Assembly: GCF_000373365.1 (NCBI RefSeq)
Contig: NZ_KB891274.1
Location: forward strand, 115,568 to 179,567
DNA length: 64,000 nt
From: Parafrankia discariae
Lineage (GTDB): Bacteria; Actinomycetota; Actinomycetes; Frankiales; Frankiaceae
Direction: 5' to 3'
The notes under the pieces are model-generated. The model was not told the DNA's origin and ran no database searches. It saw only the letters and a list, made by a program, of their open reading frames with translations. Shown piece by piece: positions 6,601-57,533 of this stretch (the stretch's first letter is position 1; every line of letters begins with the position of its first letter). Made by a program: the position numbers and the translations under genes.

Positions 6601-7183
6601 CCGGCTGACGTCGCCGAGCCGTCGTCGCCGCCGGTTCGGCCGCTCCGGGGAAGAGCGGCGCCACCCGCGGCGGAGGAGCCTGCGGCGGTATGGGCGTCGC
6701 GAGCGGTCCAGGAAACAGCGGCTCGTCCGAGGGCTTCGCGCGGCCCGAGACCGCGCCACGGATGGCGGTCAGCAGCGTGCTGCGCGTCGCCTCCGCCGGT
6801 TGGCCGAACAGGTCGACCGAGACCACCTGACCGAGCAGGCCGGGGCGGTCGCAGTCCTCGACGCGGACGGGCAGCAGTTTGCGCCGGGCACTGTCCGGAT
6901 CTGCGACAACGGCGGCCTGCCACTCGTGCCGACCATAAACCGACTGTAGATAGGCGTCCGAGAGGATCGCGATCGTGCGCGTACCGAATTGCATTCCGTC
7001 CTGCATGGTCGCGGTCCAGTTGGAGCCAGCCACCATGTCCCACGCCTGGACCAGAACCCGAAACCCGGCGTCCTCCAGCTGCCACGCAATCCACTCGGCC
7101 CAGGCGCGATCAGCCTGCGTGTAGGAGACGAAGAAACTCCAGCGGTCGCCCGGAAGCGCCCCGCCGTTCCCCCCATTGTGCAT
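617..7183 (-). CDS. Giant TIR / caspase-like / Hsp90-type ATPase protein with C-terminal wHTH repeats
   Basis: A 2188-residue multidomain protein. Order: a TIR domain (about 15-130) with the FFVSYTQADRAW strand and the candidate NAD-cleaving glutamate E87 in GRHEWQAAV; a Pro/Ala linker; a caspase-like fold (about 222-390) with the catalytic His in LVLAGHGVH (H299) but VVVDAAVAF where a DxC motif is expected; a helical region; a GHKL/Bergerat ATPase (about 885-1055) with ELYQNALDAC, DNGIGMG and RFGVGVLS boxes; then about 14 repeats of roughly 63 residues (about 1305-2188), each containing a (R/S)P.(E/D)(V/I)..R...LG core, resembling the winged-helix units found with bacterial Hsp90-like conflict proteins. 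Likely role, by analogy, is a nucleotide-gated sensor with a TIR effector. Start: I prefer the ATG at 7183 (GGGA upstream; TIR starts soon after) over an upstream in-frame start at 7258. Solitary, divergent from the DUF1214-like gene. Confidence 0.85.
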   Translation of the reverse strand: MHNGGNGGALPGDRWSFFVSYTQADRAWAEWIAWQLEDAGFRVLVQAWDMVAGSNWTATMQDGMQFGTRTIAILSDAYLQSVYGRHEWQAAVVADPDSARRKLLPVRVEDCDRPGLLGQVVSVDLFGQPAEATRSTLLTAIRGAVSGRAKPSDEPLFPGPLATPIPPQAPPPRVAPLFPGAAEPAATTARRRQPVRADTSAVPARRLVHQAADPAPAAAGGEFRALLVGVAAYDDDRLPSLPDVTEAIDTTVEALEAVGYRVEIQDRSRLGLSAVKSAIHAFISGAAPGDTLLLVLAGHGVHSGRRDYLVPSDAAVGYQPFWDLCVPVDWTQAVSRSAAARVLVVVDAAVAFDDDVRDLVTEAGWAGGPLDTPAGTDLAYLYVDPSDPFGPVGPAGPGEPAEPGGTEEPGGTAGGAGRASLLRAMVDVASHRPLPAGLEELRAALTTSLGHGDQGSGSGAGRGRGTSGRAPSCLLRASSRDPRLFTVFPAAAVGQQAGRPVHPWQTVAERHSAWTLSAEAAAGDPRAGDELRESTLRLIGRLGRVSDDAAGRLRGDPWHDPGLAARMTKRVEFLVNRLPAEADALSPAEAALLVSVPFLHQAVWTRLVARAALAHPGSPSVWTDDVERGEFEAFLRLHPRLRRRAERARRSGDQQSAAAIGWWLAHQWIISRSASYAGTAFADLLTGLGVETVASEVFLPGRLAELLTALRAAPTFLGRPGRSGALRDLVLVAPATGDEMPLRERLVGYLLAAGQRMALEPAALPSVLVEHLGVADPVRLDELRETIRRAEWQHRGRSSRALAARCGHQAVQVALEHHVAALDTLFAEAHRATAETPALAALPTHATADRIHAAEVNGRAVYSAAGAQFRLAEDKVQELLMGEQLYANRALAVRELYQNALDACRYRRAREEYLERTGAAASGWAGEITFRQGFEPDGAPYIECRDNGIGMGLRELSDVFAEAGTRAVDLPEVVEEMVAWAACDPPVEFHPNSRFGVGVLSYFMIADEIDVETCRLGPDGRPGDRLRVTIAGPGNLFRIRNLGPGRDAGTTVRLYPSRDPQSSPVSCVDTLRRILWVAEFDTRATEGVARQFWPAGRLADSAPVGMEHPLTSTLRRETTQIVMADNGVWWCDGTGAVLADGLWVGRTAFGVVLNLTGPLVPELSVDRNEIRRFVDGSAIDAVLTGELSVLRSAASFDVSWRWLASFGLGFPLVADAVMTGKVADGESWTRVDGDLVPVEQVGCLAFDHDLLPSAVPAPAGRSGRYTAFDLTDLSDSVVFARMRGWVVGRSGDPERTRDSGRALPSDMVILGVRGDGSQRYGYSIGDLSTVVFMAGMLRSSPQRVRDRMSGLGISVASVKGVAVDELGDIDLQLVSADLDGEEAMFYSAGDVTPLQVARATQHLMLSFTEVRDRYRELGFEVRPAPTQSMTIDPLDLVLLSRSLDGRGGALPGGRVGLSHVVRAAIQTGRSVGDVCSRLRRFGYRTPATGCLERSGIRPDDAVIFGRDSTGALSAQPVPAVFLSNLGNHALESAGRLRDLGFPIADTIRVPVRDGRSPVDLFPSMGTQVKFRATSRPLDRVDVYQLAREASLGLERTAAHLRAAGYVVPNVSEIDDDRLLRIRGDRFTLGWLRAPVGIPGVLGLAQSLGGQPSEVEALLADLAIPIPDLAGIEMTTDDAIIFSSGLDGNIFGGLGAVGGVAVAHVIAAAARIRRRPCEVAARFLELGEPVADPDGWDATPVTPSDPPLLACKADSAVPWLPPGGVPGGQVIALAAHSGRSPREVGRRLAELGYQTGWVADVRLTAAEDRTLIDLLDVPDARARGRARASRASLLAAAWRHGRDPVGLARWLAGLGEDPGLEVEVMPRVAIGVDDLDLLSCELDGEPPWLPDGEIGTGHILAAAGRTGRSPAEIADRLGDLGFTVADLPHPVPTEVDAVDVILLSRDLDGGAPWLRGDRVPLAYVYSAACDLSCDVAEVRARYARLGFTAAGPTSELDQDERAFVTVAFHGAEIDSASPAACDTLSIAQVLGVAEFTGRPAAEVAHRFAKLGFTVPDETRPPIASPPDLSARDGLLLSAALDGSGPWLGPGPVPMAHVLAAAGRLRWTPDRVVGRFSELGYSTSPLVASARGAVIDGADRALAELLRDENDVYQERQVSWAEVLMASHRLRRRPDQIIARLAELGLRAAP

Positions 7184-7582
7184 ATCGCGAATTATCCCAG
7201 GCGGAACCATCCCGGACGAAGGCCGGTCGCACGCCGGCGGCGGCCACAGTCCGGGCATCGACGGCGCCCGCCGTGACCAGCCCGCCCGGCACCAGCCTGA
7301 GCCAGCGGTCGCCGATCAGGATCTGGATCGTCAGGCGGCCGCACGGCGTGAGGACGGACAGCGCCGCGCACCCGACGTCGGCCGCCGTCGCGCCTCAGGG
7401 CGCGCCGTCGACCCGGCGCCTGTCGGGCGTTGCGCCGCCCGCAAATTGATGTCACGATACTGCCACTAAACCCCGGATCGAGCCCGATCGGGACCGCGAA
7501 CCCCGTGGACGTCGACCGGTGGCAGCGTTCCCAGCCGACCCGGTCTTAATCCGGGTACGAACAACCAATAGGAGCCGTCACG
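7184..7582. other. Divergent intergenic region
   Basis: About 400 bases between the giant TIR gene (minus) and the DUF1214-like gene (plus). It must hold both promoters. The plus-strand gene has a clear AGGAG ribosome site at 7570-7574. No convincing -35/-10 pair, repeat or RNA structure was recognised; an alternative upstream start for the TIR gene (7258) would use part of it. Confidence 0.5.
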
Positions 7583-16601: not shown

Positions 16602-18029
16602 TCAGGGGCTGATCAGTGGTCGGAAGGCGGCCTGCACCTGGGAGTCGCTCGGGGTGACGTACCTGTCCGAGCCGAAGCCGTAGATGACCTGCGGGCAGCT
16701 GGTGCCGCTGATCTCCACCCGGGTGTCGGTCAGCAGCCGCCCGGACCGCAGGTCGTAGCCGCGGACGGGGATCGCCACCCGATGGAACGTCACGTTCCCG
16801 CCGAGGGTGTACGGGCAGGTCTTGACCGCCGCGCCGAGCTCCGGCGCGCCGACGCAGAGCACCCGCGTGGCGGTGGCGACGTCCTCGGTCATCCACTCGG
16901 CGGGCAGCCGGGCGGTGTACTGCCGGTCGCCGGCGATCAGTGCCCGGTTCGGCCCGGCCGGAGCGGCCGAGAACGGCACCGGGGCGGCGCAGTACGCCGG
17001 CTGACCGGACGCCGGACGCTGCAGCAGGCCACGCAGCTTCGCCAGCTCGGCCGCCTGCTCACGGCGGATCCGCGCCTCCTCGAGCTTCTGGTCGGCCTGC
17101 CCCACCCCCGCCCGGGCCGCGCCCGCCAGCTCGTGGTCGGGATACTGGTCGAGCAGCTGCTGGTAGGTCGTCCGCGCGTTCTCCCAGTCCTCGGCCGCCA
17201 GCCGGCGCCCGCCGCAGTCCGCCAGCGCCCCGGGCGCGATCCGCGGGACGGCCCGGCGGGCGCGGTCCAGCTCGCCGCCGCCGGTCGGCTGCCGGGCGAG
17301 CCAGGTGGCGATCCGCACCGTGACGCAGGGATCCTCGGTCGGCAGGCCGGCGAGGAACCGGTCCAGAGCCGCCCCTACCAGGCCCTCGTTGCCGGGCAGC
17401 GCCGTGAGCACGGTGGACAGCTGCCGGAAGCCCCGGTCCAACGCCGCGGTGTCGCCGGTCAGCCCGGCGTCGAGCGGGCCGGCGGCCGTCCGCAGCAGCG
17501 CGCACGCCTCGACCATGTCCTCACCGGCGGCGGCCGGGGCGACCTCCACCATGCGATGGGCGGGCGACACCCGCTCCACGGCCGACTCCACCCGCGGGCA
17601 GTCGTCGGCGCGGCGGGCCTGCGCGACGTCCCGCTCGATCCGCGCGACGTCGAACCGCAGGAGGCCGAAGGCCAGCAGCACCGGGAGCACGGCGGCGACG
17701 GCGACGGCCCACTGCCGCTTCGACCGGACCGGCCGGAGCCGGCCCCGGCTCGGCCGTCCCCCGGCCAGGTACCAGCCGTGCGCGATGACGGCCACCCACC
17801 AGGCGAGCAGGACGAGCCCGAACCACAGTGTCTGCGCGACCGAGGCGAAGATGATCAGAAGTTCGGCGGTGATCAGGAGGACGACTACGGCGAGCTGTCC
17901 CCGACCCAGCATCAGGTAGCCGCCGCCGAACAGCGAGGCGTTGGCGACGGCGACGGCGAGCGGGTCGTGGGACCGGGCCGCCGGTCTCGGCTCCGGCTCC
18001 GGCTTCGGCTCCGACTCACCCTGCGTCAT
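16602..18029 (-). CDS. Membrane protein with TPR-like periplasmic region (Hsp70 operon tail)
   Basis: A 475-residue protein of unknown family. After an acidic/proline N-terminus it has three membrane helices (about 46-66, 68-88 and 107-125), then an extracytoplasmic helical domain with a tetratricopeptide-like unit (DWENARTTYQQLLDQYPDHELAGAARAGVG is split around 285-310) and a coiled-coil-prone stretch (QKLEEARIRREQAAELAKL), and a C-terminal globular domain with four cysteines. The first helix pair resembles small TM2-type hairpins (SLFGGGYLMLGRGQ). ATG at 18029 with AAGGAC upstream. It is the last gene of the FHA-kinase-chaperone operon, 67 bases after the OmpA-domain gene. Probably a structural or sensory membrane component; function inferred only from context. 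Confidence 0.7.
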   Translation of the reverse strand: MTQGESEPKPEPEPRPAARSHDPLAVAVANASLFGGGYLMLGRGQLAVVVLLITAELLIIFASVAQTLWFGLVLLAWWVAVIAHGWYLAGGRPSRGRLRPVRSKRQWAVAVAAVLPVLLAFGLLRFDVARIERDVAQARRADDCPRVESAVERVSPAHRMVEVAPAAAGEDMVEACALLRTAAGPLDAGLTGDTAALDRGFRQLSTVLTALPGNEGLVGAALDRFLAGLPTEDPCVTVRIATWLARQPTGGGELDRARRAVPRIAPGALADCGGRRLAAEDWENARTTYQQLLDQYPDHELAGAARAGVGQADQKLEEARIRREQAAELAKLRGLLQRPASGQPAYCAAPVPFSAAPAGPNRALIAGDRQYTARLPAEWMTEDVATATRVLCVGAPELGAAVKTCPYTLGGNVTFHRVAIPVRGYDLRSGRLLTDTRVEISGTSCPQVIYGFGSDRYVTPSDSQVQAAFRPLISP

Positions 18030-18096
18030 GTGTTCGTCCTTCCCTGCCGCCCGCTCTGTCGCCGCCCGCTTCGTCGCCTGCTCAGGCGCGGTCGCC

Positions 18097-19080
18097 TCAG
18101 GCGGGCGGCGAGACGCGGAGGGTCACCGTTCGGTTCCGGGGGTCACCGGCGGACGTCCCGGCCGCGGCGCCGGCCGGATCGCCGGCGTAGGGGGTCAGGG
18201 CGTCGCCGGCCGCGGAGACCGCGAAAGCCGCGGCCGGGACTCCGGCCGCGCGCAGGATCCGCGCGGCGGACGCGGCGCGAGCCAGGCTCAGCGCGGTGTT
18301 GTCGGGGAAGGGACCTCCCGGGCGGACCGGAAGGCTGTCGCTGTGGCCGACGACCTCGACGGCGATCCCGGGCACGGCCGCCAGCCGGGCGCCCAGCCCG
18401 CTCAGCGCGGCGCGGCCGTCCGGGGTGGGGGTGTCCTGGGTGGCGAACAGCGCGGCGCGGAAGACCACGACCACCTGGCCGCCGGCCCGGGTGATCGTGG
18501 CGTCCGGCCCGGCGAGACGCGCGGCCAGATCCGCCGTCAGCTCCCCCGGCCCGGCGGGAGCCGGCGCGGAGACGGCGGGAGCCGGCGCGGCGGAGATCAC
18601 CGGAGCCGCGGGGCCCGGTGGGTGGCTGGTCGAGGCCACCGGGTCGGCGCCGTCGTGGCCGAGCCACCAGCCGCCGCCGAAGGCGAGCGCGCCGAGCAGC
18701 GCGGCGGCCGCGCCGCCCCGGACCAGGCCGCCGCCACCGCGGGCCCGTGGCCGCTGCAGGCGGCGCAGGCCCGCCGCCGCCGCCGCGTGGTCGCCGTCCA
18801 GGGCCAGCGCGGCGCGCCAGTGCCGCTCGGCATCGACGAACCGGCCCTGCTGCGCCCGGATCCGGGCCAGCAGGTCGTGCTCCGCCGCGGTGTGGTCGCG
18901 CCCGGTGGCCAGCTCCGCGAGCAGGCGCGCGGCGTCCTCGTGCCGGCCGGAGCGGGCCAGCGTGGCGGCCTGCCCACGGACGACCTCGCCGACCAGCGCG
19001 GCCCGGGCGGTGGCGCCGTCACCGTTCCCGGTCGTGGCCGCGACCGGCGGCGACGGCGCGTCACCGGGATCGGCGGACAC
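18097..19080 (-). CDS. OmpA-family domain membrane protein with TPR-like N-terminus
   Basis: A 327-residue protein. Residues about 30-108 form two TPR-like helix pairs (HEDAARLLAELATG, GRFVDAERHWRAALALDGDH), followed by one membrane helix (about 120-140), a Pro/Ala linker and a C-terminal OmpA/MotB-like peptidoglycan-binding domain (about 200-327) with VEVVGHSDSLPV (the GHTD-like motif), LSLARAASAARIL and DPRNRTVTLRV (the NR...) motifs. It would tie a cytoplasmic TPR to the cell wall across the membrane. GTG start at 19080 with GGAGGGC inside the end of the Hsp70 gene; the two genes overlap by 20 bases, so translation is coupled. Confidence 0.85.
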   Translation of the reverse strand: MSADPGDAPSPPVAATTGNGDGATARAALVGEVVRGQAATLARSGRHEDAARLLAELATGRDHTAAEHDLLARIRAQQGRFVDAERHWRAALALDGDHAAAAAGLRRLQRPRARGGGGLVRGGAAAALLGALAFGGGWWLGHDGADPVASTSHPPGPAAPVISAAPAPAVSAPAPAGPGELTADLAARLAGPDATITRAGGQVVVVFRAALFATQDTPTPDGRAALSGLGARLAAVPGIAVEVVGHSDSLPVRPGGPFPDNTALSLARAASAARILRAAGVPAAAFAVSAAGDALTPYAGDPAGAAAGTSAGDPRNRTVTLRVSPPA

Positions 19081-21559
19081 TGCTGCCCTCCGGCCGCGCT
19101 GGCGTGTCCTCGGTCGGCAGCAGGTCGAACAGCTGCCGGTTCACCGTGCGCAGCCGCTCGATGTCGTTGCTGTCGACGGCGCGCCGGCCCTCGGCGATCA
19201 GGCGGTTGGCCAGCGCCTGGTCGCGCAGCTCGGAGCGCTGTTCGACCAGCTGGGAGAAGTGGGCCATCACGACGGCGCCCGTCTTGCGGTCGACCACCAT
19301 GGCCAGGTGGCCGGTCAGTTCGTCGACGAGGGTCCGCAGGTGGGCGGCGTCCCGGCCGTCCAGTGCCCGGCGGACGTCGGCGGCGAGGATCTCGAACCGG
19401 CGCCGGTCCTGGGCGTCGCCGTACTCGTCGATGATGCCCGGCGCGTCGCGCAGCACCCGGTTCGCCCACTCGACCAGCGAGGGCCACTCCAGCGCCTCCT
19501 CGACGGCGTCGAGCTTCGCCCGCAGGTCGAGCATCCGCTTGCCGGCGGTGCCCGCCGCGTCCGCGTCGCCGTGCTCGGTGGAGGACACGTCGTTCTCGAG
19601 CTGACCGAGCGCCTGCTCGTCCTCCAGCTCGCCGAGCAGGGCGAGCGCCGCCGGGTCGGACGTCCGTTCCGCGTCGGCGCGCAGCGCGTCGTACCGCTCC
19701 TGCTCGGCGGTCAGGTCCCGGCGCAGCCTGGCCGGATCGGCGGCGGTCTCGGTGGTCAGGTCGTGGAACGCCTCGAAGTCCTCGTCGAGGATCGGCACGT
19801 AGGCCTTGGTGGTGACCAGCCGGGAGGCGTCGATCTGGATCTCCACCTCGATCTCGCTGCCCTTCGGGATGTCCCGGGCCACCTGGTCGGCGAGGATCTC
19901 CAGCGCGCCGACCTGCCGGTTGCGGTCGGCCCGGGGATGCTCACCCTCCAGGATCGGGATCCGCAGCAGGCCGCCGGACTGACCGCGGGTGAGCCGCACG
20001 GTGCTGCGCAGGATCTCGCGGCCCTTGGCGGGGATCCGGGTGCCCTTCTCCAGCAGCCAGGCGACCTCGTTGCCGGCCAGCGCCACCCCGATCGAGTGGG
20101 TGAGGGTGGCGCCGGGCGCGACCACGCCGAGGGTGTAGGTCAGTTCCGCGGGCTGGATCCGCTCGCGGGTTCCCGTCGGGTCCTCCAGGACGATCTCGTA
20201 GCTGTTGCGCAGCCCGGGCTCGGCCCGCAGCGTGGTGATGAACGAGCCGGCCGCCGGCAGGATGATCTGCCCGCTGCGCCACGGCGGGCGGGCCTGCGCG
20301 TTGACGAACTCGACGGTGAACCCCTCCAGGCTCCGGTCCGCCGGGCCCCGCACCACCCCGCCGACCACCGGCTCCGGGTCGGAGCCGATCGGCCGGTACT
20401 CCAGGTCCACGGTGTAGGAGACCCCGGCCCGTACCGGCTCCGCCGGCAGCCGCTGCGTCCCGGCGAAGATCGCCGCGCCGCGGGCCACGACGGTCATCGG
20501 ATCCTGGCTGACGTCCAGCTCGATGCCGAGGCCCTCGCCCAGCCGCCGGCGCAGGTAGGGCATGAGGGTGGGCCCGCCGACGAGCAGCACCCGGTCGATC
20601 TTCTCCGGCGCGAGCTGGCTCTCCCGCAGCGCGGCCTGGCAGATGTTGATCGCGCGGGCGACGAAGGGCTCGGTCAGCCGGTCGACGTCCGCGGCGGACA
20701 GCTCGTGGACGAACTCCACCGGGTTCCCCCGGGAGTCGGTGCACAACGGGGGGTCGCTGATGTCGATGAGTGCCGAGTCAGCGGAGGACAGCTCGATCTT
20801 CGCGTTCTCGGCGGCGGCCTTCAGCTTCGCGACCGCCTGCGCCCAGGTGGGCTCGCCCCGCCCGAAGCCGGGCAGGGAGTACTGCCGGAGCAGCGCGGGC
20901 ATCAGCAGCTCCTCGACGATCGCCCAGTCGATGAGCTTCCCGCCGAGGAAGTTGTCACCGCGGTGGTTGACGATGTCGAACTCGCCGTCCCGGATGTGCA
21001 CGACCGAGGCGTCGAAGGTTCCGCCGCCCAGGTCGAACACCAGCCGGTAGATGTTGTCCTCGTCGCGCTGGAAGCTGTAGGCGAGGGCGGCCGCGGTCGG
21101 TTCCTGCAGCAGCGGCGACAGGCCGAGGCCGGCGGCCTCGGCGGCCCGCCGGGTGGCGTCGGTCTGGTTCAGTTCGAACGCCGCCGGAACGGTGATGACC
21201 GCCGCCCGGATGTCCTCCCCGAGCTGCCTGTTCACATTCGCCTTCAGCGCCCGCAGCACGTGCGCGGACAGTTCCTCCGGGCTCAGGGAAAGGCCGCTGT
21301 TGGCGAAGTTCGTCGCCTGGTCGCGTAATCCCATCCTGAGCTTGAACTCGGCGGCGGCGTTCGCCGGATCGGACTCGACCCGTTCCCGGGCGCGTTCACC
21401 GACGTGGATCCGGCCGTTGCGGTCGGCGTAGACCGCCGACGGGGTCGTGTCGTGCCCGAACGCGTTCTTGACGATGCGGGCCTCGGTGCCGTCGAGGACC
21501 GCGATCGCGCTGTTGGTGGTGCCAAGGTCGATGCCGAAGTCCATCGTCGATCGCGCCAT
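19061..21559 (-). CDS. Hsp70 family protein, long atypical DnaK paralogue
   Basis: An 832-residue Hsp70-like ATPase. The N-terminal nucleotide-binding domain (about 1-375) shows the phosphate loop GIDLGTTNSAIAVLDG, the AVITVPAAFELNQTDATR segment, LVFDLGGGTFDASVV and VLLVGGPTLMPYLRRRLGE. The substrate-binding part is diverged and much longer than in canonical DnaK (about 640 residues in total), with several beta-rich segments and a helical C-terminus lacking an EEVD-type tail. It probably handles a dedicated client rather than general folding. ATG at 21559 after GCAGGAGGAACG. Gene order kinase / J-like / GrpE-like / Hsp70 provides a complete private chaperone cycle. Confidence 0.93.
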   Translation of the reverse strand: MARSTMDFGIDLGTTNSAIAVLDGTEARIVKNAFGHDTTPSAVYADRNGRIHVGERARERVESDPANAAAEFKLRMGLRDQATNFANSGLSLSPEELSAHVLRALKANVNRQLGEDIRAAVITVPAAFELNQTDATRRAAEAAGLGLSPLLQEPTAAALAYSFQRDEDNIYRLVFDLGGGTFDASVVHIRDGEFDIVNHRGDNFLGGKLIDWAIVEELLMPALLRQYSLPGFGRGEPTWAQAVAKLKAAAENAKIELSSADSALIDISDPPLCTDSRGNPVEFVHELSAADVDRLTEPFVARAINICQAALRESQLAPEKIDRVLLVGGPTLMPYLRRRLGEGLGIELDVSQDPMTVVARGAAIFAGTQRLPAEPVRAGVSYTVDLEYRPIGSDPEPVVGGVVRGPADRSLEGFTVEFVNAQARPPWRSGQIILPAAGSFITTLRAEPGLRNSYEIVLEDPTGTRERIQPAELTYTLGVVAPGATLTHSIGVALAGNEVAWLLEKGTRIPAKGREILRSTVRLTRGQSGGLLRIPILEGEHPRADRNRQVGALEILADQVARDIPKGSEIEVEIQIDASRLVTTKAYVPILDEDFEAFHDLTTETAADPARLRRDLTAEQERYDALRADAERTSDPAALALLGELEDEQALGQLENDVSSTEHGDADAAGTAGKRMLDLRAKLDAVEEALEWPSLVEWANRVLRDAPGIIDEYGDAQDRRRFEILAADVRRALDGRDAAHLRTLVDELTGHLAMVVDRKTGAVVMAHFSQLVEQRSELRDQALANRLIAEGRRAVDSNDIERLRTVNRQLFDLLPTEDTPARPEGSSVRRSR

Positions 21560-21643
21560 CGTTCCTCCTGCTGCCCGGCGGGACGGATGTGGGACGGGGA
21601 GTGGGGCGGTTCGGGGGGCGAGGGTGGGGCGGGTGCCGGCGGG

Positions 21644-22210
21644 TCAGCCGGCCTCGTCCCGGATCACGGGGACGCCGACGACGACCTCGCCGGTCTGGAC
21701 GCGCCGCCCGTGCAGGTAGACGCTCGGCCGCAGGGTCTCCAGGACGGTCTCGCCGGTCAGGCCCGCGGTCTGCTGGAACTCCAGGACCTGCAGGTCGAGA
21801 CCCGAGTCGTACCGGGTGTGGTCGTGCTCCTGGATCTCGACGCCGGCCGCGGCGAGGGTGCTCCAGAGCGATTCGAACTGGCGCCGCGCCCGGCGCAGAT
21901 CCGCCGCCCCACCGCCGTCGCCCGCGCCGGAACCCGCCGCCGGGCCGGCGAGGCGCCGACGCAGGCGCCACAGCCCGGTCGCGAGCTGGGCCACCGCCGG
22001 CTCGCCCAGCGCCGCCTCCGCCGGGGCCGGGTCCCCCGATCGCTCGGCGGGTGCCGGCCGCTCGGCGGGTGCCGGCCGCTCGGCGGGTGCCGGCACGGGC
22101 TCGGCCTGCGCGACGGCCCGCAACAGCGCCGCGGCCCATTCCTCCGGTGTCGCCGGCCGGGCGATGCGGAACTCGCGGGGATGGCGCCACTGGCGCGGGA
22201 TCTCAGGCAC
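21644..22210 (-). CDS. GrpE-like nucleotide exchange factor
   Basis: A 188-residue protein whose C-terminal half (TVLETLRPSVYLHGRRVQTG, EVVVGVPVI) matches the beta-domain ending of GrpE, preceded by a helix (LRRARRQFESLWSTLAAAGV) in the position of the GrpE four-helix bundle. It would exchange nucleotide on the Hsp70 encoded 84 bases downstream. The N-terminal third is Pro/Ala-rich with a triple PAPAER repeat. The start is the GTG at 22210, overlapping the TGA of the upstream gene (GTGCCTGA), with a G-rich ribosome site; longer in-frame starts would overlap the upstream gene by over 100 bases. Confidence 0.75.
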   Translation of the reverse strand: MPEIPRQWRHPREFRIARPATPEEWAAALLRAVAQAEPVPAPAERPAPAERPAPAERSGDPAPAEAALGEPAVAQLATGLWRLRRRLAGPAAGSGAGDGGGAADLRRARRQFESLWSTLAAAGVEIQEHDHTRYDSGLDLQVLEFQQTAGLTGETVLETLRPSVYLHGRRVQTGEVVVGVPVIRDEAG

Positions 22211-23849
22211 CGCCCACCCCCAGCGGCCGTTCCCCGTTCTGCCATCCCTTTTCGCGTAGTTCCACGATCGTTGGGAACTGGTCGACATGTTTTCGTTGTC
22301 TTCTGCGGGCGAACCCGACGACGACATTGAGGTCCTCGAAAACCGCCAAGAACGCGATCAGTACGGCCAGGAAGATCCATCCGCCGCCGGCGCCGGTGAA
22401 CAGCATCGTGGGAAGGCTGATCGCGACCACGAAGTACAGCGCGCACCGCAGCGCGGCCAGCCAGCCCCGGCTCGTCTCGGCGCGCTTGCAGGACCGGCAG
22501 CGCGGCACGGTGACCTCCACCTTGTTCCAGCGCACCTCGCGCACCGCCCGGACCACGTCGCCGTGCATCCATCTCGTGATCGCCGCTCCGGGGTCGGCCG
22601 GCTGCTCGTGGCAGATCCAGCAGGTCAGCCGGATGGAGGCCCGGTCGAGGATCTCCCGGTTCTCGGCCAGCCGGCCGCGGACGGCCTCGGACGCCGCCAC
22701 CCGCTCGGCCCGGCCGAGCACCTCGATCATCCGCAGGTGGTCGCGGGCGGCGGCGGCCTCCGATCTGTCCCTGCCCTGGTCGAAGAGCAGCAGGCAGCGC
22801 AGCGCGTCGAGGGCGACCTTGTCGTGGGTGCGCACCCGCGTCGGGTCCTCGGCCGGCAGCAGCCGGTCCAGCCGTGCCAGCGGCTCCACGGAGTGGTCGA
22901 GCAGGTGCGTGGCGTGGTCCAGGCCCGCCGTCCGGTCGTCGGTGGCCAGCCGGACGTCCTCCTCGCCCAGCTCGCCGAGCTGGTCGGCCCAGGGCTCGCC
23001 GGCCGCGCGCAGGGCGGCGCCCAGCGCCTCCCGGGCGCCGTCCCCGAGCTGGGCGGCCCGCAGCGCCGTCAGCTGCCGCTCGGCCCGGTCGTCGTCGCCG
23101 TCCCCGATGGCGGCGACGACGACCGCGGCGCCGATGGACAGCAGGGCGGCCGGCAGCGCCGCGCGGATCCGGGCGGCGCGGCCCACGTCGAGACGGGCGT
23201 CGGCGGCACGGCTGATCCGCGCCGCCAGGCTGTCCCAGACCCGGTCGTCGTGCAGGACGACGCCCCAGCGGCGGTACACCGAAGCCCAGTCGGGCTGGTC
23301 GCCCGCGGCGCCCAGCTCGACTTCCAGGGCCCGCAGGTGCTCGAGCACCGCGAGGTTGTGAACCGCGCTCGCGGGATCCCCGGGCGGGGCCGGATCTCCG
23401 GAGGTCCCCGGGCCCGCGGACGCGGCCGGGCCGCCGTCCCCGCCGTCCCCGGCGACGCCGGCGTCGCCGGGGACGGCCGCCGCGCTCCAGTGTCGGAGCG
23501 CGGCGGCCGCGTCGCCGGCGGCCAGGGCGGTGATCCCCGGGTCCGGCACGGCGCCGGACCCGGCCGGCCAGAACCAGAAGAACTCGTCGACCAGCCGCTG
23601 ACGCGGGTCGCCCAGCCGGTCGAGAGCGGCCCGGACCTCCCCGGCGGACGGGGCCGGCCGCAGTGGGAGGACCTCCGGGGCCGGTAGCTGCCCGCCGGTC
23701 TTCTCGATCACGGCGAGCATGTCGGCCCTGCGCCGGATGTCGCGTCCCGTGGCAGAGAGCGGCAGGCCGGTCACCCGGAAGGCGTTCTGCCGGTAGATCA
23801 GCGCGGACACCCGCGGCAGGGCGTCGGTGTCGGTGTCCCGGGTCGTCAC
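22203..23849 (-). CDS. J-like / zinc-ribbon membrane protein of Hsp70 operon
   Basis: A 548-residue protein. The N-terminal region (RQNAFRVTGLPLSATGRDI, RRRADMLAVIEKTG ... LGDPRQRLVDEFFWFWP) resembles the start of J-domain-like modules found with Hsp70s, but no HPD tripeptide is seen, so stimulation of ATPase activity is uncertain. A long helical middle follows; in the last third two CxxC pairs (TCWICHEQ ... PRCRSCKRA) can bind zinc, followed by two membrane helices (LRCALYFVVAISLPTMLFTG and WIFLAVLIAFLAVF) and a basic tail. The GTG at 23849 overlaps the kinase stop (ATGTGA) and has AGGGGG upstream. It probably recruits Hsp70 to the membrane, an inference from order and domains. Confidence 0.65.
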   Translation of the reverse strand: MTTRDTDTDALPRVSALIYRQNAFRVTGLPLSATGRDIRRRADMLAVIEKTGGQLPAPEVLPLRPAPSAGEVRAALDRLGDPRQRLVDEFFWFWPAGSGAVPDPGITALAAGDAAAALRHWSAAAVPGDAGVAGDGGDGGPAASAGPGTSGDPAPPGDPASAVHNLAVLEHLRALEVELGAAGDQPDWASVYRRWGVVLHDDRVWDSLAARISRAADARLDVGRAARIRAALPAALLSIGAAVVVAAIGDGDDDRAERQLTALRAAQLGDGAREALGAALRAAGEPWADQLGELGEEDVRLATDDRTAGLDHATHLLDHSVEPLARLDRLLPAEDPTRVRTHDKVALDALRCLLLFDQGRDRSEAAAARDHLRMIEVLGRAERVAASEAVRGRLAENREILDRASIRLTCWICHEQPADPGAAITRWMHGDVVRAVREVRWNKVEVTVPRCRSCKRAETSRGWLAALRCALYFVVAISLPTMLFTGAGGGWIFLAVLIAFLAVFEDLNVVVGFARRRQRKHVDQFPTIVELREKGWQNGERPLGVGGA

Positions 23850-24961
23850 ATCGTCACCCCCTTGCGCCACAGCCGGATCCGTGAGGCGTACTGGTTACGC
23901 AGCCCGGGCCACTTGTTGCAGGCCTCCTCCATCAGGTCGGCGGCGCGGTCGTACTGGCCGCCGGTGGCGACGGTGACCGCCTGGCGGGCCATCCGCACGG
24001 CCGTCGCCTCGTCCGCGGACGAGGATCGGCCGAGCGCGTTCTTGCCCGCGGCGATCTCCCCGGCCGGTCCGGGCTCCCGTTCCGGCGGGCGTGGCGGCGC
24101 CGGCCTCCCGGGCTCCCACGCCTCCAGGTCGGCGAGCATCCCGACGGCCGACGGGTAGCGTTTCGCCGGGTCGTAGGACAGCGCCCGGCCGACGATCCCG
24201 TCCAGTGCTTCGTCCACGGAGTACCGGATCTCGCTGGGCGGTACGAGCGTGCCGGTGTTCCAGCCGGCCGTGATCGGGTCGCCGCCGGAACGCCGCGGGT
24301 AGGGCAGCTGGTCGGTCAGCAGCAGGTAGAGCACCGCGCCCAGAGCCCACACGTCGCCCGGTACCGACGCGAGATGCGGGTGGAGCAGGGTCTCGGGCGC
24401 CATGAAGGCGATGGTTCCCTGAGAGCTGGCCAGCAGGGTCAGCGCACTGACTTTCCTGGCGAGACCGAAATCGCTGATCCGCACGTGCAGGCCGGCCCCG
24501 CTGTAGCCGACCAGAATGTTCTGCGGGGTGATGTCACGGTGCACGATCGGCGGGGAGGCCCGGTGGGCGACCGCCAGGCCGCGCGTCATCTGCCGCAGGA
24601 TGTCGACCGCGGTCGGGACGGGAACGAACGTGGTGCCGTACGACGACCAGAAGCTGTGCAGGGTGCCGCCGGCCACATATTCCATGGTGAAGTACGCGTA
24701 TGTCCCGCCGGCCGTCTCGACGGTGTTGGCCTCGAACACGCGGATCACGTTGGGGTGCCCCATGCCGGACAGCAGCATCGCCTCGCCGAGAGCGTCGCGT
24801 ACCTGTTCCGCGGACATTCCGACCTGCCGGAAGACCTTCATCGCCTGCCGGCCCAGATACCGGTGCTCGACCCGGTAGACCTCGGCGAAGGCACCCTCGC
24901 CCAACAGCCGGTCGACCTTGTAGGTATCCCGGATTACCTGCCCCTCGCGTAACAGGACCAT
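23846..24961 (-). CDS. Serine/threonine protein kinase (Hsp70 operon)
   Basis: A 371-residue soluble Hanks-type kinase. The glycine loop GEGAFAEVY (21-29), Lys42 in AMKVF, the HRDITPQN catalytic loop (Asp143), DFG (164-166) and a MAPE motif are all present, so it should be active. It ends in a short helical segment (about 320-365, VATGGQYDRAADLMEEA) reminiscent of one TPR, and has no membrane helix. ATG at 24961. Its stop overlaps the start of the J-like gene. With the FHA gene 105 bases upstream it forms a phospho-signalling input to the Hsp70 cassette: the FHA domain may read threonines phosphorylated by this kinase. Confidence 0.93.
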   Translation of the reverse strand: MVLLREGQVIRDTYKVDRLLGEGAFAEVYRVEHRYLGRQAMKVFRQVGMSAEQVRDALGEAMLLSGMGHPNVIRVFEANTVETAGGTYAYFTMEYVAGGTLHSFWSSYGTTFVPVPTAVDILRQMTRGLAVAHRASPPIVHRDITPQNILVGYSGAGLHVRISDFGLARKVSALTLLASSQGTIAFMAPETLLHPHLASVPGDVWALGAVLYLLLTDQLPYPRRSGGDPITAGWNTGTLVPPSEIRYSVDEALDGIVGRALSYDPAKRYPSAVGMLADLEAWEPGRPAPPRPPEREPGPAGEIAAGKNALGRSSSADEATAVRMARQAVTVATGGQYDRAADLMEEACNKWPGLRNQYASRIRLWRKGVTM

Positions 24962-25066
24962 AGGTGAGACCTCCGGCGGCCGAGCTCCAGGTTTTCGTTG
25001 TCGCGAGCCGGCTCCGGCCGCCGGACCAGAACCTAGGTGAAAGGCTCCCGGCCGGATAGTTGAGCG

Positions 25067-25783
25067 CTACACCCCGGCGTCCGGTTGCCGGGACCTCCGG
25101 ATGTCCCGCTCGGTGATCAGGCGGTTGAGGATCATCCAGCGGGCCAGGTCCTCCCAGTCCGCCAGGCCGGGCTCGTCGCGGTCGCTCAGTTCCCGACGGA
25201 CGTCCGAGATGACGTTGCGCACGTAGTTCGGGCCGCGGCCCAGCCGCTCGCCGATCTCCTTGTAGGTGGCCGGCCGGGCGTCGGCCCCGGACTTCGTCAG
25301 CAGTGGCCGGCACAGCTCGATGATGATGTCGAGCTGCGCCGGGGTGAGCCGGACCGGCCGGCTGAGGGTCGCCCTGCTCTCGGCGAGCGTCTCCTGGCCG
25401 AGCGACTTCCGGTCATGGGTGACGGCGGAGGCGTCGACCTGAACGGTGGCGGTCGCCCCGCCGCGGCGGGCCGCGACGATGTCGAACCTGGGGAACGGCA
25501 GCGAGGTCATCGCCGCCCCGGGTTCGACGATTCTGTCCTCGCCGGCGGGCGGGCGCAGACAGAATGGTTTCGACCGCGACCTGTTGTACACCAGCACGCA
25601 GTCGTCCAGAACCCGCAGCGAGGCCATGTGCCGCGACAGGTAGGTGTCGTCCGGAAGCTTGACGGCGCAGGCGCCGCTGCGCCCCACGGTGATCTCCTCG
25701 CCGAGAGCGACCTGCCACTTCCGCCCGCAGTACTCCAGTACGACGACCGGACCCGGCGAGCGGCCCGTACCGTGGCTACCCAC
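25067..25783 (-). CDS. FHA domain protein with C-terminal wHTH-like domain
   Basis: A 238-residue cytosolic protein. The N-terminal half is an FHA phosphothreonine-binding domain (EITVGRSGACAVKLPDD, TYLSRHMASLRVLDD, with the GRS, SRHH-like SRH and N/R residues of the pThr pocket). The C-terminal half (LTPAQLDIIIELCRPLL, TYKEIGERLGRGPNYVRNVI) looks like a winged helix of the type fused to FHA in actinomycetes. It may link kinase output to another component or to DNA. First gene of the seven-gene minus operon. The GTG at 25783 with AAAAGGGGGTGG upstream is preferred to a GTG at 25816 that adds a Trp-rich stretch. Confidence 0.85.
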   Translation of the reverse strand: MGSHGTGRSPGPVVVLEYCGRKWQVALGEEITVGRSGACAVKLPDDTYLSRHMASLRVLDDCVLVYNRSRSKPFCLRPPAGEDRIVEPGAAMTSLPFPRFDIVAARRGGATATVQVDASAVTHDRKSLGQETLAESRATLSRPVRLTPAQLDIIIELCRPLLTKSGADARPATYKEIGERLGRGPNYVRNVISDVRRELSDRDEPGLADWEDLARWMILNRLITERDIRRSRQPDAGV

Positions 25784-26152
25784 CCACCACCCCCTTTTCC
25801 ACGCTGCCTGCCACACCGCGGCGCAAGCGATCTGATCACCCGAACCGGGCTCATTTTAGGGTGTGTACGCGGTGGTGACCAGATCGGTGGCGGACGGCGC
25901 GTGCGTTCCCGTCCGCATCACCGGGATTCCGCGCCGCCGCGGGCCGGCGGCATTCCTGACGGCCCGGGGCCGAAGTCGCTCGAAGCCGACACACGCCGGG
26001 ATTGCCGGAAGGGCCACCGGGCCGGGACGCACAAGCGGGGCTATCCGTAGTGGTCCGGAATCCCGGGGCGGTCGTTAAGCTGGTTTCATCGTGATGATCA
26101 GAATCGTGATGACGCGACGACCGGCGATTCGACCGGGCCACCGGGTCCGCCG
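25784..26152. other. Divergent regulatory region between FHA operon and TPR kinase
   Basis: 369 bases that must hold the operon promoter (minus) and the kinase promoter (plus). A 10-base direct repeat ATCGTGATGA occurs at 26088-26097 and 26103-26112, 15 bases apart, about 45 bases before the kinase start; it could be a regulator site. A TTTTAGGG AT-rich patch lies at 25852-25861 close to the operon side. No RNA gene recognised. Confidence 0.4.
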
Positions 26153-27919
26153 GTGATCGTCGATCGGGGGCGGGTGGCCGCGGCGGCGCCCAACTACGTC
26201 CTCGGTGAGCAGCTCGGCGCCGGCGCGTTCGGGCTGGTCCTGCGGGCGGAGCACCGGCGAATGCGCCGGCCGGCGGCGATCAAGGTCATGCCGGCCCAGA
26301 CCGCCGAGGGTGAGCGGATCGACTTCGCCGCCGAGGCACGGCTGCTCGGCGGTCTTGATCATCCACATGTGGTCCGGGTCTACGACTACATCGAGGCCGA
26401 CGACCTGTGTCTGGTGGTGATGGAGCTCCTCGCCGGGGGCACGCTGACCCGGCAGCGCGCCGGGATGACGCCGGAACAGGCGTGCGCGGTGGGCCTGGCG
26501 GTGTCCGCGGCGCTGAGCCACGCCCACGCCCGCAACGTGCTGCACCGCGACGTCAAGGCCGACAACATCCTGTTCGCCGCGGACGGGACCGTGAAGGTCG
26601 GCGACTTCGGCATCGCGAAGCTGTTCGAGGGGTCGGCGACCACCGCCAGCAAGGTAGCCGGCACCCCGGTCTACATGGCACCCGAGCAGATCGAGGGCGG
26701 CCGGCTGGTCCCGGCCACCGATCTCTACGCGCTGGGCATCGTGCTCTACCGGCTGCTGGCCGGCCGGCCGCCGTTCGACCCGAAGCTGCCGTTGCACATC
26801 CTGTGGCGGCGCCAGCTGACCGAGCCCGTCCCGCCCCTGGCCGGGGTGCCCGCCCCGGTCGCGGAGGTGGTGCTGCACGCGCTGGAGAAGGAGCCGGCCG
26901 ACCGTCAGCCGGACGCCGCCACGTTCGCGCTCGCGCTCGCGCGCGCCGGCGCCGCGGCCTACGGCGGGGGCTGGCTCGCCCGGGCCGGCCTGCCGCTGCA
27001 CCTCGACGACACCGTCCGCCGCCTCGCCGAGGGTTCACCGGCCGGGGGGTCACCGGGGGCCGGCCGCACCCGGGGCGCCACCGGGGCCGCGATCTCCACG
27101 ACCGCCCGGGTGGACCCGACGACCGTCCGCACGAGGAGACAGCCCGCGGGTGGGCCGCCGGGTGGCCCCGAATCCGCCGAGGAGCTGTTCGCCCGGCTGC
27201 GGCGAACCCACGGCCCCGAGCACCCCGACACCCTGGACGCCGCCAACACCCTCGCCGTACGGCTCAGCGCCCTCGGTGACCACCGGGGCGCCCGCGACCT
27301 CGACGAGGACACCCTCACCCGGCGCCGCCAGGTGCTGGGGCCCAGCCATCCGGACACCCTCACCTCGGCCCACAACCTCGCCGTCGACCTGGCCGAGATC
27401 GGCGAGCACCCCGCGGCCCGCGAGCTGTACCGGGACACCCTGGCCCGGCGCCGTCAGGCGCTGGGGCCCGACCATCCGGACACCCTCAGCTCGGCGACCG
27501 ACCTCGGCATCCTGCTCAACGCGTTGGGCGACCACTCCGGCGCCCGCGACCTCGGCGAGGACACCCTGGCTCGGCGGCGCCGCGCGCTGGGCGCCGACCA
27601 CCCCGACACCCTCGACTCGGCCTACAACCTGGCCGTGCGGCTGAGCGCGCTCGGTGACCACCGGGCCGCCCGCGACCTCGGCGAGGACACCCTCACCCGA
27701 CGCCGCCGCGTCCTCGGGCCCGAGCACCCGGACACCGTCACGTCCGCCTACAACCTCGCCGTCTACCTGGGCAAACTGGGCCGGTACCGGGAGGCCCGCG
27801 CGCTCGGCGAGCAGGTCCTGGCCAGTCGCCGCCGGATCCTCGGGCCCGACCACCCGGACACCCTCGGCACCGCGGAGGCCCTGCAGTGGTGGATCCGCCA
27901 GGATCCGGACGGCGCATAG
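26153..27919 (+). CDS. Serine/threonine protein kinase with six C-terminal TPRs
   Basis: A 588-residue soluble kinase. The kinase domain (about 15-270) has LGAGAFGLVL, Lys44 in AAIKVM, HRDVKADN (Asp133), DFG (151-153), VAGTPVYMAPEQ and a DLYALGIVLY segment. A Pro/Gly linker (about 295-345) leads into six 42-residue tetratricopeptides of the kinesin-light-chain type, each with a GP.HPDTL turn (five HPDTL, one HPDTV). No membrane helix separates the two parts, so it is not a PknB-like receptor; the TPRs probably bind substrates. GTG start at 26153. Divergent from the FHA/kinase/Hsp70 operon, likely its partner kinase. At DNA level the TPRs are near-perfect 126-base tandem repeats, prone to copy change. 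Confidence 0.93.
   Translation: MIVDRGRVAAAAPNYVLGEQLGAGAFGLVLRAEHRRMRRPAAIKVMPAQTAEGERIDFAAEARLLGGLDHPHVVRVYDYIEADDLCLVVMELLAGGTLTRQRAGMTPEQACAVGLAVSAALSHAHARNVLHRDVKADNILFAADGTVKVGDFGIAKLFEGSATTASKVAGTPVYMAPEQIEGGRLVPATDLYALGIVLYRLLAGRPPFDPKLPLHILWRRQLTEPVPPLAGVPAPVAEVVLHALEKEPADRQPDAATFALALARAGAAAYGGGWLARAGLPLHLDDTVRRLAEGSPAGGSPGAGRTRGATGAAISTTARVDPTTVRTRRQPAGGPPGGPESAEELFARLRRTHGPEHPDTLDAANTLAVRLSALGDHRGARDLDEDTLTRRRQVLGPSHPDTLTSAHNLAVDLAEIGEHPAARELYRDTLARRRQALGPDHPDTLSSATDLGILLNALGDHSGARDLGEDTLARRRRALGADHPDTLDSAYNLAVRLSALGDHRAARDLGEDTLTRRRRVLGPEHPDTVTSAYNLAVYLGKLGRYREARALGEQVLASRRRILGPDHPDTLGTAEALQWWIRQDPDGA
27195..27890 (+). repeat. 126-bp tandem repeats encoding TPRs
   Basis: Successive 42-codon units share phrases such as CCGGACACCCTC and GCCCGCGACCTCG. 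Six copies of the HPDTL/V codon block can be followed from about 27220 to 27865. Multiples of three, so recombination between units would keep the frame. Confidence 0.75.
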
Positions 27920-57400: not shown

Positions 57401-57533
57401 CAAGACGAGCAAGTGGGTGCACTACCCCGCGACCGGGACGGGCGGGCGTTACGCCGGCCTCACCGGTTTCCGCACCTGGCGGATGACGGGCGTGCGGGCT
57501 TCCGCCGAGGCCCGCATCCTGCTGTCCGACTGA
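54462..57533 (+). CDS. RHS/YD-repeat protein reading into an AbyU-like Diels-Alderase domain
   Basis: A 1023-residue open frame. Residues about 60-780 are YD repeats (YDPAGRPVRHTDAAGAVTAF, YTFDGHGRLLTVTDPLGG, YEYDGHGRLVARVAPTS and many more), closing with the RHS core HFLDNRLYNGYWGRFTQPDP (about 755-775). After an Ala/Pro linker the frame continues without a stop into an allene-oxide-cyclase-barrel domain (889-1023). No signal peptide, PAAR or transport domain is visible, unlike secreted Rhs toxins, and no immunity gene follows. RHS shells enclose their C-terminal cargo; here the cargo would be a cyclase. Whether the fusion polypeptide is made or the tail is translated separately is open. GTG at 54462 with GAGGGGA upstream. 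Confidence 0.85.
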   Translation: MSDFQDDHDPGAVWRLPVSDTTILLVELTTGEPVLRQRDLLAPRADAVRPPSREYRGRRTGENSGPGPGWSVTGPDDSAGVEYDPAGRPVRHTDAAGAVTAFSWDDEHRLTGLTDAAGALVRLSYTAAGAVSEVVLEGVGRTGFTYQDEPSGTGGPAGSGGPAAEGTRTVVTDPLGRATAYTFDGHGRLLTVTDPLGGVHRQEWDPVGRLAAVVDRTGGRTAYEYDGHGRLVARVAPTSARSSVGYGDPAHPDLVTTLRDPAGNEVVLEHDTAGRVVRAGTPGTAGAADTAGAAGSLDRRAYDPVHGRISSVTNGAGHRTSFEYDAAGELVAVSPPAPRRRASYDYDEFGRVVAVTGGNGRRTAYRHDPVGRLVEVSGPGGVLLSQTHDPLGRIVRRAGAGWRYDYSWVATSAGSRLAAVVRTDDAGREEVRAEHGPDGALRSLTTAGGTTDYDYDPAGRLAGVRTPTGHQARFTRDAAGRALRIEFGGAVQEISYDAAGRRRALTLLGADGATLLSAEYDYRDPTGADGDRLRRLVLDGQATEYAYDPLGQLIQAGPTSYAYDAALNLVRLGETAFTIGAAGEVTRFGATEFDYDGAGNFVEEVNPTGSFRYSDTNQTVLGVFGGAIVADIAHDGLGQQTPRRVTETTVDGRTVTHVLTHGPLGVARVVDDGVPLDVVRLPDGTVLAVITAEGRLLWTVTDHQGSVLALVDEQGGLAARYGYTPHGAVTATGPDAATNPFRYRGAYQLLRSAHFLDNRLYNGYWGRFTQPDPTGRQYGPYTFADNDPLGAGLPGRHDFWAALTGPPELAAELFFPPADVAAPTAGAADGPHARAALAALTGPGVTPAQLPRIAEHGTGHTAGRRTDRTTAPAGPAGRANPTPKGRPTVADQIVIRVPNEVVVKVVDDVVDLGDPQIGQTGVFDDELYDEDGNLIGTSHGSFRIEYVRPGDGGLITYYTEDITLDDGTIHAEGWADFKDVKTSKWVHYPATGTGGRYAGLTGFRTWRMTGVRASAEARILLSD
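57126..57533 (+). CDS. AbyU-like spirotetronate Diels-Alderase (internal start)
   Basis: The last 135 residues of the RHS frame, which could start at the GTG 57126 with AAAGGA exactly 9 bases upstream. The sequence (QIVIRVPNEVVVKVVDDVV, GVFDDELYDEDGNLIGTSHG, SFRIEYVRPGDGG, LITYYTEDITLDDGTIHAEG, WADFKDVKTSKWVHYPATGT, GGRYAGLTGFRTWRMTGVRA) matches, from memory, the eight-stranded barrel enzyme AbyU of abyssomicin synthesis, which performs the intramolecular [4+2] cycloaddition joining the exocyclic tetronate methylene to a triene. The tetronate cassette right behind it supports this strongly. The active-site residue set must be checked against AbyU. Confidence 0.75.
   Translation: MADQIVIRVPNEVVVKVVDDVVDLGDPQIGQTGVFDDELYDEDGNLIGTSHGSFRIEYVRPGDGGLITYYTEDITLDDGTIHAEGWADFKDVKTSKWVHYPATGTGGRYAGLTGFRTWRMTGVRASAEARILLSD

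Follow-up and report, generated by a model that had tools for sequence, protein, structure and literature searches.

The stretch of DNA analysed here (the window) comprises 64,000 nucleotides (nt) of the genome of Parafrankia discariae and contains an operon of seven genes on the minus strand (16602-25816), next to a divergent gene on the plus strand (26153-27919). The host is a soil actinobacterium with a genome of 7.9 Mb, and its closest named relatives are Parafrankia soli and Frankia (Hsp70 identity, 96%). In the order of transcription, the operon encodes a probable regulator with FHA and helix-turn-helix regions (P0001), a core Ser/Thr kinase (P0002), a J-like protein (P0003), a GrpE-like protein (P0004), an Hsp70 (P0005), an OmpA-type protein (P0006), and a membrane protein (P0007), and the divergent gene encodes a second Ser/Thr kinase carrying TPR repeats (P0008). 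An earlier reading made from the letters alone (hereinafter referred to as the sequence-only reading) had assigned these genes to a private Hsp70 machine combined with kinases, an FHA protein, and a cell-wall anchor. All eight open reading frames (ORFs) were open at the coordinates given there. Its labels for the kinases, the Hsp70, and the OmpA-type protein were confirmed by a Pfam scan covering all eight proteins, those for the J-like and GrpE-like proteins gained support from profile comparison, and those for FHA and for the TPR of P0007 were matched weakly or below the Pfam cut-off.

The overlaps between genes described in that reading were found at three of the six junctions, namely kinase/J (25 nt), Hsp70/OmpA (20 nt), and J/GrpE (8 nt, if the GrpE-like protein starts at GTG 22210, the start suggested by its orthologues). 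The other junctions are gaps of 105 nt (FHA to kinase), 84 nt (GrpE to Hsp70), and 67 nt (OmpA to P0007). A single transcript for the seven minus-strand genes is predicted as likely.

The Hsp70 and its J-like and GrpE-like partners

The Hsp70 (P0005; 19061-21559, minus strand) matched Pfam HSP70 (2.6e-79), chiefly over the nucleotide-binding domain (NBD), and its profile alignment to Escherichia coli DnaK spanned the entire protein (probability 100). It comprises the NBD (residues 1-370), a beta-rich insert (about 378-483), the beta part of the substrate-binding domain (SBD-beta; about 484-600), and a long helical C-terminal part, so that about 105 residues (378-483) occupy the site of the short linker of DnaK. 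The AlphaFold model (mean predicted local distance difference test score, 91) resembled the structures of DnaK and BiP (Z of about 48) and contained beta strands in the insert.

For comparison across the family, 37 of 43 Hsp70 ORFs were aligned (alignment A3), leaving out partial ones, the second Hsp70 of locus L048, the short L057, and the near-duplicate L040. The ATPase residues K70, E171, T199, D201, and P143 were retained in all 37 rows, and equivalents of K70, E171, T199, and D201 together with an aligned SBD-beta place these proteins in the Hsp70 superfamily. R167 is the Hsp70 residue on which the histidine-proline-aspartate (HPD) motif of J proteins acts (PMC7289447, available in part). 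This position was replaced in 33 of the 37 rows (P in 30, L in two, and T in one; R in four), while R167 is present in E. coli DnaK, HscA, and HscC. N170 was replaced in every row (Q in 35), R151 was C, T, or N, and R34 was D or E, both likewise in 37 of 37. Canonical Hsp70s rely on these four positions for their control by J proteins. D481, the second partner of R167, was S in 34 rows; this change was not used as evidence, since canonical DnaKs of the same genomes carry N there.

In a quick tree, the 37 rows fell on one side of a branch with a Shimodaira-Hasegawa-like approximate likelihood ratio (SH-aLRT) support of 99, leaving E. coli DnaK, HscA, and HscC and ten own-genome paralogues outside; the tree contains one E. 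coli sequence per type, and its long branches make the deeper placement unsure. According to a review, prokaryotic Hsp70s are of three types, DnaK, HscA, and HscC (PMC8215388, seen in part). The operon Hsp70 groups with none of them in the tree, and the family fits none of the three types, judged by its predicted architecture or by its placement. Additional Hsp70s were recorded at two sites. In an Anaerolineales locus, a second, diverged Hsp70 of 822 amino acids lies in tandem ahead of the orthologue (L048:13051-15519, plus strand). Elsewhere in the P. discariae genome, locus L118 (G000:C124:34000-53000) encodes three divergent Hsp70-like proteins outside the Hsp70 clade of the operon, with one ORF combining HSP70 and a PQQ propeller, and a weak GrpE-like match.

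Neither the J-like nor the GrpE-like protein matched a Pfam family at E<=1. Nevertheless, the N-terminus of the J-like protein (P0003; 22203-23870, minus strand) aligned to a profile of 27 canonical J domains (probability 90, E 1.6e-6; best of 50 column shuffles, probability 1.3). The J region covers about residues 25-100, where the model contains the four expected helices (30-34, 42-58, 76-87, and 89-97). The J fold was recognised by the profile; the structure searches did not cover the J region or the zinc ribbon. HPD was present in 27 of 27 canonical J domains. In contrast, the tripeptide occurred in two of 57 J-like ORFs, both times near the N-terminus and outside the helix II-III loop, the place where it marks a J domain. 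Behind the J region, P0003 contains a helical repeat (166-415), a CxxC..CxxC zinc ribbon (417-461), and two hydrophobic segments (473-517); such C-terminal hydrophobic segments are found in most J-like members. The J-like alignment (A4) uses 28 of the 57 ORFs. Foldseek returned TPR and helical-repeat hits for the J-like protein, none at E<=0.001, and VIA-align matched residues 278-417 alone, with a best Z of 12.6 to designed helical proteins, within the uninformative range of that tool, so neither was retained as a structural match.

The GrpE-like protein (P0004; 21644-22327, minus strand; likelier start, GTG 22210) aligned to a profile of 25 canonical GrpE proteins over the beta-wing only (probability 85, E 6.6e-6; best of 30 shuffles, probability 0.84), and the long dimeric helix was unaligned. 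The beta-wing was thus recognised by profile, without a Pfam GrpE match. Sequence searches of the PDB with alignments A6, A4, and A5 (A5 being the GrpE-like alignment, 27 of 45 ORFs) returned nothing useful; the A5 search gave GrpE 4ani at E 0.12.

Conservation of the gene cluster

Among 58 related genomes, nine contained the J-like gene, and the same nine contained full-length Hsp70 orthologues (62-96% identity within Frankiaceae). Conservation of gene order in relatives was a point on which the sequence-only reading could have fallen. The neighbourhood survey bore it out, with an identical order in all nine Frankiaceae, one of whose genomes is split over two contigs and another has its contig cut inside the OmpA gene, and with gene order conserved across phyla as well. 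The operon has its own J-like and its own GrpE-like protein, in agreement with the private Hsp70 machine proposed there.

When 84,980 species genomes were scanned for matches to the J-like alignment, 51 loci were obtained. Together with the window, this gives 52 loci, many of them cut by contig ends, in which a partner was counted when it lay on the same strand within 6 kb. Beside the J-like gene were found a GrpE-like gene in 46, an Hsp70 gene in 42, a core kinase gene in 36 (kinase hits with E above 1e-60 and a length over 200 amino acids were left out), and an OmpA-type gene in 21. Of the ten loci lacking the Hsp70 gene, nine end at a contig edge, and L059 (Planctomycetota) is a true miss. 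Since the OmpA-type gene and the core kinase gene are present in 21 and 36 of the 52 loci, neither belongs to the minimal J-GrpE-Hsp70 unit. The idea of kinase and wall anchor in one system therefore stands for the conserved kinase and for a membrane-plus-wall anchor where these are encoded, and not for every locus.

Record titles and taxonomy assign the aligned Hsp70s, 37 in all, to ten phyla: Actinomycetota, Nitrospirota, Pseudomonadota, Bacteroidota, Acidobacteriota, Planctomycetota, Chloroflexota, Thermodesulfobacteriota, Verrucomicrobiota, and Kiritimatiellota. Outside Actinomycetota, the genes most often run kinase-J-GrpE-Hsp70-(OmpA), the order in Acidobacteria was kinase-GrpE-J-Hsp70, and that in Actinomadura was GrpE-Hsp70-OmpA-J. 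Within phyla the genes are rare: the GrpE-like gene was found in at least five of 194 (one of them weak), at least one of 148, and at least three of 199 genomes of three phyla, and a full-length J-like gene in at least one of 296 Actinomycetota genomes. These counts are lower bounds, with 5 to 22 candidates scored per genome, and each includes the centre genome; a second match in the Actinomycetota scan spans profile positions 385-517 alone and was excluded as a member. Searches of plasmids, phages, and viral contigs did not find the module. In Mantel tests, pairwise distances of the Hsp70 were correlated with those of the kinase (rho 0.78) and of the J-like protein (rho 0.82), and none of 999 permutations was as high. 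As judged from gene content and order, the cluster is a conserved module rather than a chance cluster.

Kinases, wall-binding protein, and neighbouring genes

The core kinase (P0002; 23846-24961, minus strand) matched Pfam Pkinase (4e-41). In the 26 aligned rows (alignment A7, from 44 hits), K42, E60, D143, N148, and D164 were invariant, and the helical C-terminal tail was conserved. Outside Frankiaceae, nearly all core kinases were 38-54% identical to that of the window (about 50% as an overall figure across phyla), while own-genome kinase paralogues reached at most 38% identity. By alignment, the core kinase is one orthologous family with an intact active site. The divergent kinase (P0008; 26153-27919, plus strand) matched Pkinase (3e-47) plus TPR_10/TPR_12, and it was found near full length in eight of the nine Frankiaceae loci. 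In Frankia sp. EI5c, a kinase-TPR remnant of 57 residues was recorded (L017:6262-6432, minus strand), with the remaining operon present. In all three Acidobacteria loci (L041, L055, and L068), a divergent kinase-WD40 gene lies upstream as the positional counterpart of the Frankia kinase-TPR gene.

P0001 (25067-25816, minus strand) matched no Pfam or PDB entry. It gave NCBIfam FhaB at E 0.037 and a Sigma70_r4-like stretch at E 0.028, and contains a GR..SRH..N motif, which we take to be an FHA signature; this motif and the FhaB match together suggest the FHA label. Its orthologues begin at about residue 12 of the annotated frame (GTG near 25783), and patches of the intergenic region between P0001 and P0008 (25784-26152), a candidate shared control region, are kept in four Frankiaceae, among which no operator motif was found in that region. 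The FHA protein, counted as a part of the system by the sequence-only reading, is present in Frankia, but the gene was found in five of the nine Frankiaceae loci. In Pseudofrankia (L021, L022, and L023), tblastn found no FHA gene, and ORFs of 113-146 amino acids lie between both kinases instead.

Signalling genes also adjoin the module in other phyla. Upstream of the kinase in Nitrospira (L032) are an FHA-GAF-sigma54-activator and a PP2C phosphatase, with a ClpB-like protein of two AAA domains downstream, and an FHA protein with Trans_reg_C lies immediately upstream of the kinase in Bacteroidia (L037). The Frankia FHA protein was considered as a homologue of the latter; the two do not align and are hence analogous in position, with homology not shown. 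Eleven loci have in common a Clp-N-like protein (Pfam Clp_N below cut-off), which is a full-length AAA+ protein in L032 and, by length alone, also in L046 and L053. In Candidatus Magnetominusculus, a Clp-N-like region fused to a class III adenylate/guanylate cyclase adjoins the module (L038:15710-16849, plus strand). The upstream genes termed f9, present in five loci from Verrucomicrobiota and from L051, an unplaced bin, are sigma-factor-like on reading alone.

The OmpA-type protein (P0006; 18097-19080, minus strand) contains TPR (TPR_2, 3.6e-5, below cut-off), a weak transmembrane segment, and a peptidoglycan-binding domain of the OmpA/MotB/TssL-like kind (Pfam OmpA, 1.2e-6). The motif region with R268 and N316 was conserved in most rows. 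The motif GH(S/T)D..P..N..L..RA, which presumably has a role in wall binding, could be recognised in Frankiaceae, in Accumulibacter, and in several Actinomadura, with looser forms in the other members. Type VI secretion and a Zorya/MotB-like motor were considered because the OmpA domain resembles TssL, MotB, and ZorB, and were rejected, as no other component was present; in particular, no type VI component besides the TssL-like OmpA protein was detected in the operon or in those of its neighbours that were scanned. P0007 (16602-18029, minus strand) has three hydrophobic segments as well as a stretch that weakly resembles TPR (TPR match 3e-4), and its orthologue was found in five of the nine Frankiaceae loci, one of the four misses being a contig end.

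Two further genes of the window were recorded. A protein of 1023 amino acids (54462-57533, plus strand) contains RHS repeats and an allene-oxide-cyclase-like barrel at its end. Another of 2213 amino acids (617-7258, minus strand), about 9 kb from the operon, contains TIR_2, iHD-CE/HD-CE, and eight wHTH-HSP90_Na-associated stretches, an architecture like that of conflict systems.

Proposed function and comparison with known systems

The strongest single point on the function of the operon is that HPD in the J-like protein and R167 in the Hsp70 have been lost together while the ATPase site is intact. The machine presumably runs, and not on the classical trigger. We propose that the operon specifies a remodelling machine with a dedicated Hsp70 that is gated by phosphorylation, is tethered to the envelope, and is not triggered by the classical contact between a J protein and Hsp70, a proposal to which we give about equal chances of being right and wrong. 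The J-like protein would serve as a membrane-anchored adaptor that presents clients to the Hsp70 via its helical repeat, and not as a classical ATPase trigger. The Hsp70 would act on them with its canonical ATPase and substrate-binding domain, and the GrpE-like protein would reset it. With the HPD/R167 trigger usually missing from both partners, hydrolysis would be set off in another way, most likely through phosphorylation by the operon kinase and/or through the inserted domain; in kinase-bearing loci, the kinase is the most economical substitute. Further, the OmpA-type protein, where present, may tether the assembly to peptidoglycan, the divergent repeat-kinase (TPR in Frankia, WD40 in the three Acidobacteria loci) may sense the stimulus, and FHA regulators may report the phosphorylation state to transcription. 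In loci with a ClpB-like neighbour, clients may be passed on for full disassembly. Control of the assembly or disassembly of a wall complex, as suggested by the sequence-only reading, is plausible. That reading had not noticed the lack of HPD in the J-like protein, the lack of its target arginine in the Hsp70, or the wide distribution of the module.

Several observations weigh against this proposal. The main difficulty lies in the loci without a kinase: those of Streptomyces, Virgisporangium, and Glycomyces contain J-GrpE-Hsp70 alone, and the core kinase is absent nearby in Actinomadura and Thermomonospora, so that gating by the core kinase would not be general unless it is encoded elsewhere. 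The four rows that keep R167 are from Streptomyces, though no HPD was found in their J-like loops. Loss of R167 is also not unique to the Hsp70s of the operon, since own-genome Hsp70 paralogues likewise lack it (three with D and one with S). In L041, L055, L060, and L063, the J-like proteins are short, without ribbon or C-terminal hydrophobic segment. In addition, the Mantel test was significant for most pairs but not for kinase and OmpA (118 of 999 permutations), and shared species history is a confounder that may be the sole cause of the correlated distances.

The operon resembles the canonical DnaK-DnaJ-GrpE system (with ClpB) in its ATPase site, its SBD-beta, its J-like and GrpE-like partners, and sometimes a ClpB-like neighbour. 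It differs in the missing HPD, the mostly replaced R167, the D or E at R34, the linker insert, and its coupling to a kinase and to the membrane. Mitochondrial Pam16/Magmas likewise has a J fold without HPD and is a membrane-linked Hsp70 regulator. It works with an HPD-bearing J partner, whereas none is encoded in the operon. Among envelope-assigned Hsp70s, the cyanobacterial DnaK1-DnaJ3-GrpE set (PMC9239167) and StkA and SglK of Myxococcus xanthus (PMC8265645, PMC4319316), linked to type IV pili and polysaccharide, are comparable as far as the available parts of these papers tell. Membership in the M. xanthus systems was rejected, since the available parts of those papers describe different architectures (StkA has 540 residues and other neighbours, and SglK complements E. 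coli dnaK); the two are set apart by these descriptions only.

HscC of E. coli with DjlB/DjlC is another parallel, being a specialised Hsp70 with dedicated membrane-anchored J partners, an insertion relative to DnaK, and a sporadic distribution (PMC8215388, seen in part). In the same source, the insertion is drawn in SBD-beta, whereas that of the operon Hsp70 lies between NBD and SBD-beta, and HscC is inferred not to use GrpE, while the operon encodes a GrpE-like protein; the available part mentions no kinase for the HscC system. E. coli DjlC contains HPD, as does HscB, and HscC has R167, unlike most of their counterparts here. An ordinary HscC-like Hsp70 for envelope or stress proteostasis, with kinase and anchor as accessories and with the losses of HPD and R167 as drift compensated by the host DnaJ, nonetheless draws on this precedent, on the several family members without kinase and OmpA, and on the retained ATPase site and substrate-binding fold. 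We regard it as unlikely: a kinase orthologue with a conserved tail accompanies the Hsp70 across phyla, the family lies outside HscC in the tree, and the residues that take the place of R151, R167, N170, and R34 recur (C, P, Q, and D/E) and are not random, which looks like a selected new interface.

The main rival is a role against invaders, as an anti-phage or conflict system. In such a system, invasion would be sensed by a repeat-kinase or by the J-like protein, the Hsp70 and the kinase would amplify the signal, and either a partner or the membrane-bound J-like protein would act as the effector. Published conflict systems employ Hsp70, GrpE, and DnaJ: the GAP1-N2 GTPase-centred systems encode in operons an Hsp70, GrpE, and a J (DnaJ-FNIII) or TPR partner, and another theme of the same study, available in part, has, in a further likeness, an active kinase, a zinc ribbon, and PP2C (Kaur et al. 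2020, PMC7159879). Moreover, DnaJ serves phage sensing by bNACHT25 (PMC12169576, available in part). The patchiness of the J-like and GrpE-like genes, the repeat-kinases, the cyclase fused to a Clp-N-like region, Fic (L051) and FGE-sulfatase domains nearby, and the 2213-residue TIR/HD/Hsp90-associated protein of the window point the same way. However, GAP1-N2 systems are defined by a GTPase, and Pfam found none among the eight Frankia proteins (the neighbours of other loci were only sampled), while the module has a J-like membrane protein without HPD and a kinase that forms a single orthologous family. PADLOC-DB 2.0.0 gave kinase models and a weak ZorB only, with none for the J-like, GrpE-like, or Hsp70 proteins, and the Pfam scan of the eight genes detected no toxic domain such as a nuclease or TIR. 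With sequences conserved and not fast-evolving, neighbours outside the module that vary between genera, and the absence from the mobile elements searched, such a role seems rather unlikely. Finally, chance clustering or mere local co-expression would be compatible with proteins linked by gene proximity and co-inheritance alone and with variable flanking genes; given the adjacency of the Hsp70 gene in 42 of 52 loci, with contig ends accounting for nine of the ten misses, and the order retained in Frankiaceae and across phyla, it is very improbable.

No published description of a J-GrpE-Hsp70-kinase gene set was found in a search that lacked the majority of subscription papers and preprints. In the standard teaching, an Hsp70 cannot act at all unless the HPD of a J protein contacts its arginine. 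The present family, found in ten phyla, has dropped this contact, kept its ATPase together with J-like and GrpE-like partners of its own, and gained a conserved kinase. We tentatively suggest, as possible rather than probable, that it represents a fourth bacterial Hsp70 type beside DnaK, HscA, and HscC, in which the J trigger has been dismantled on both sides and a dedicated Ser/Thr kinase drives the cycle at a complex anchored to membrane and wall. If true, an Hsp70 would have been turned into a phosphorylation-operated remodelling switch that has spread across at least ten phyla. If the kinase replaces the trigger, the family would be a natural experiment on the requirements of the Hsp70 cycle and a testable case of bacterial Ser/Thr signalling driving an envelope chaperone, and it would offer a plausible function for a set of proteins without a Pfam match.

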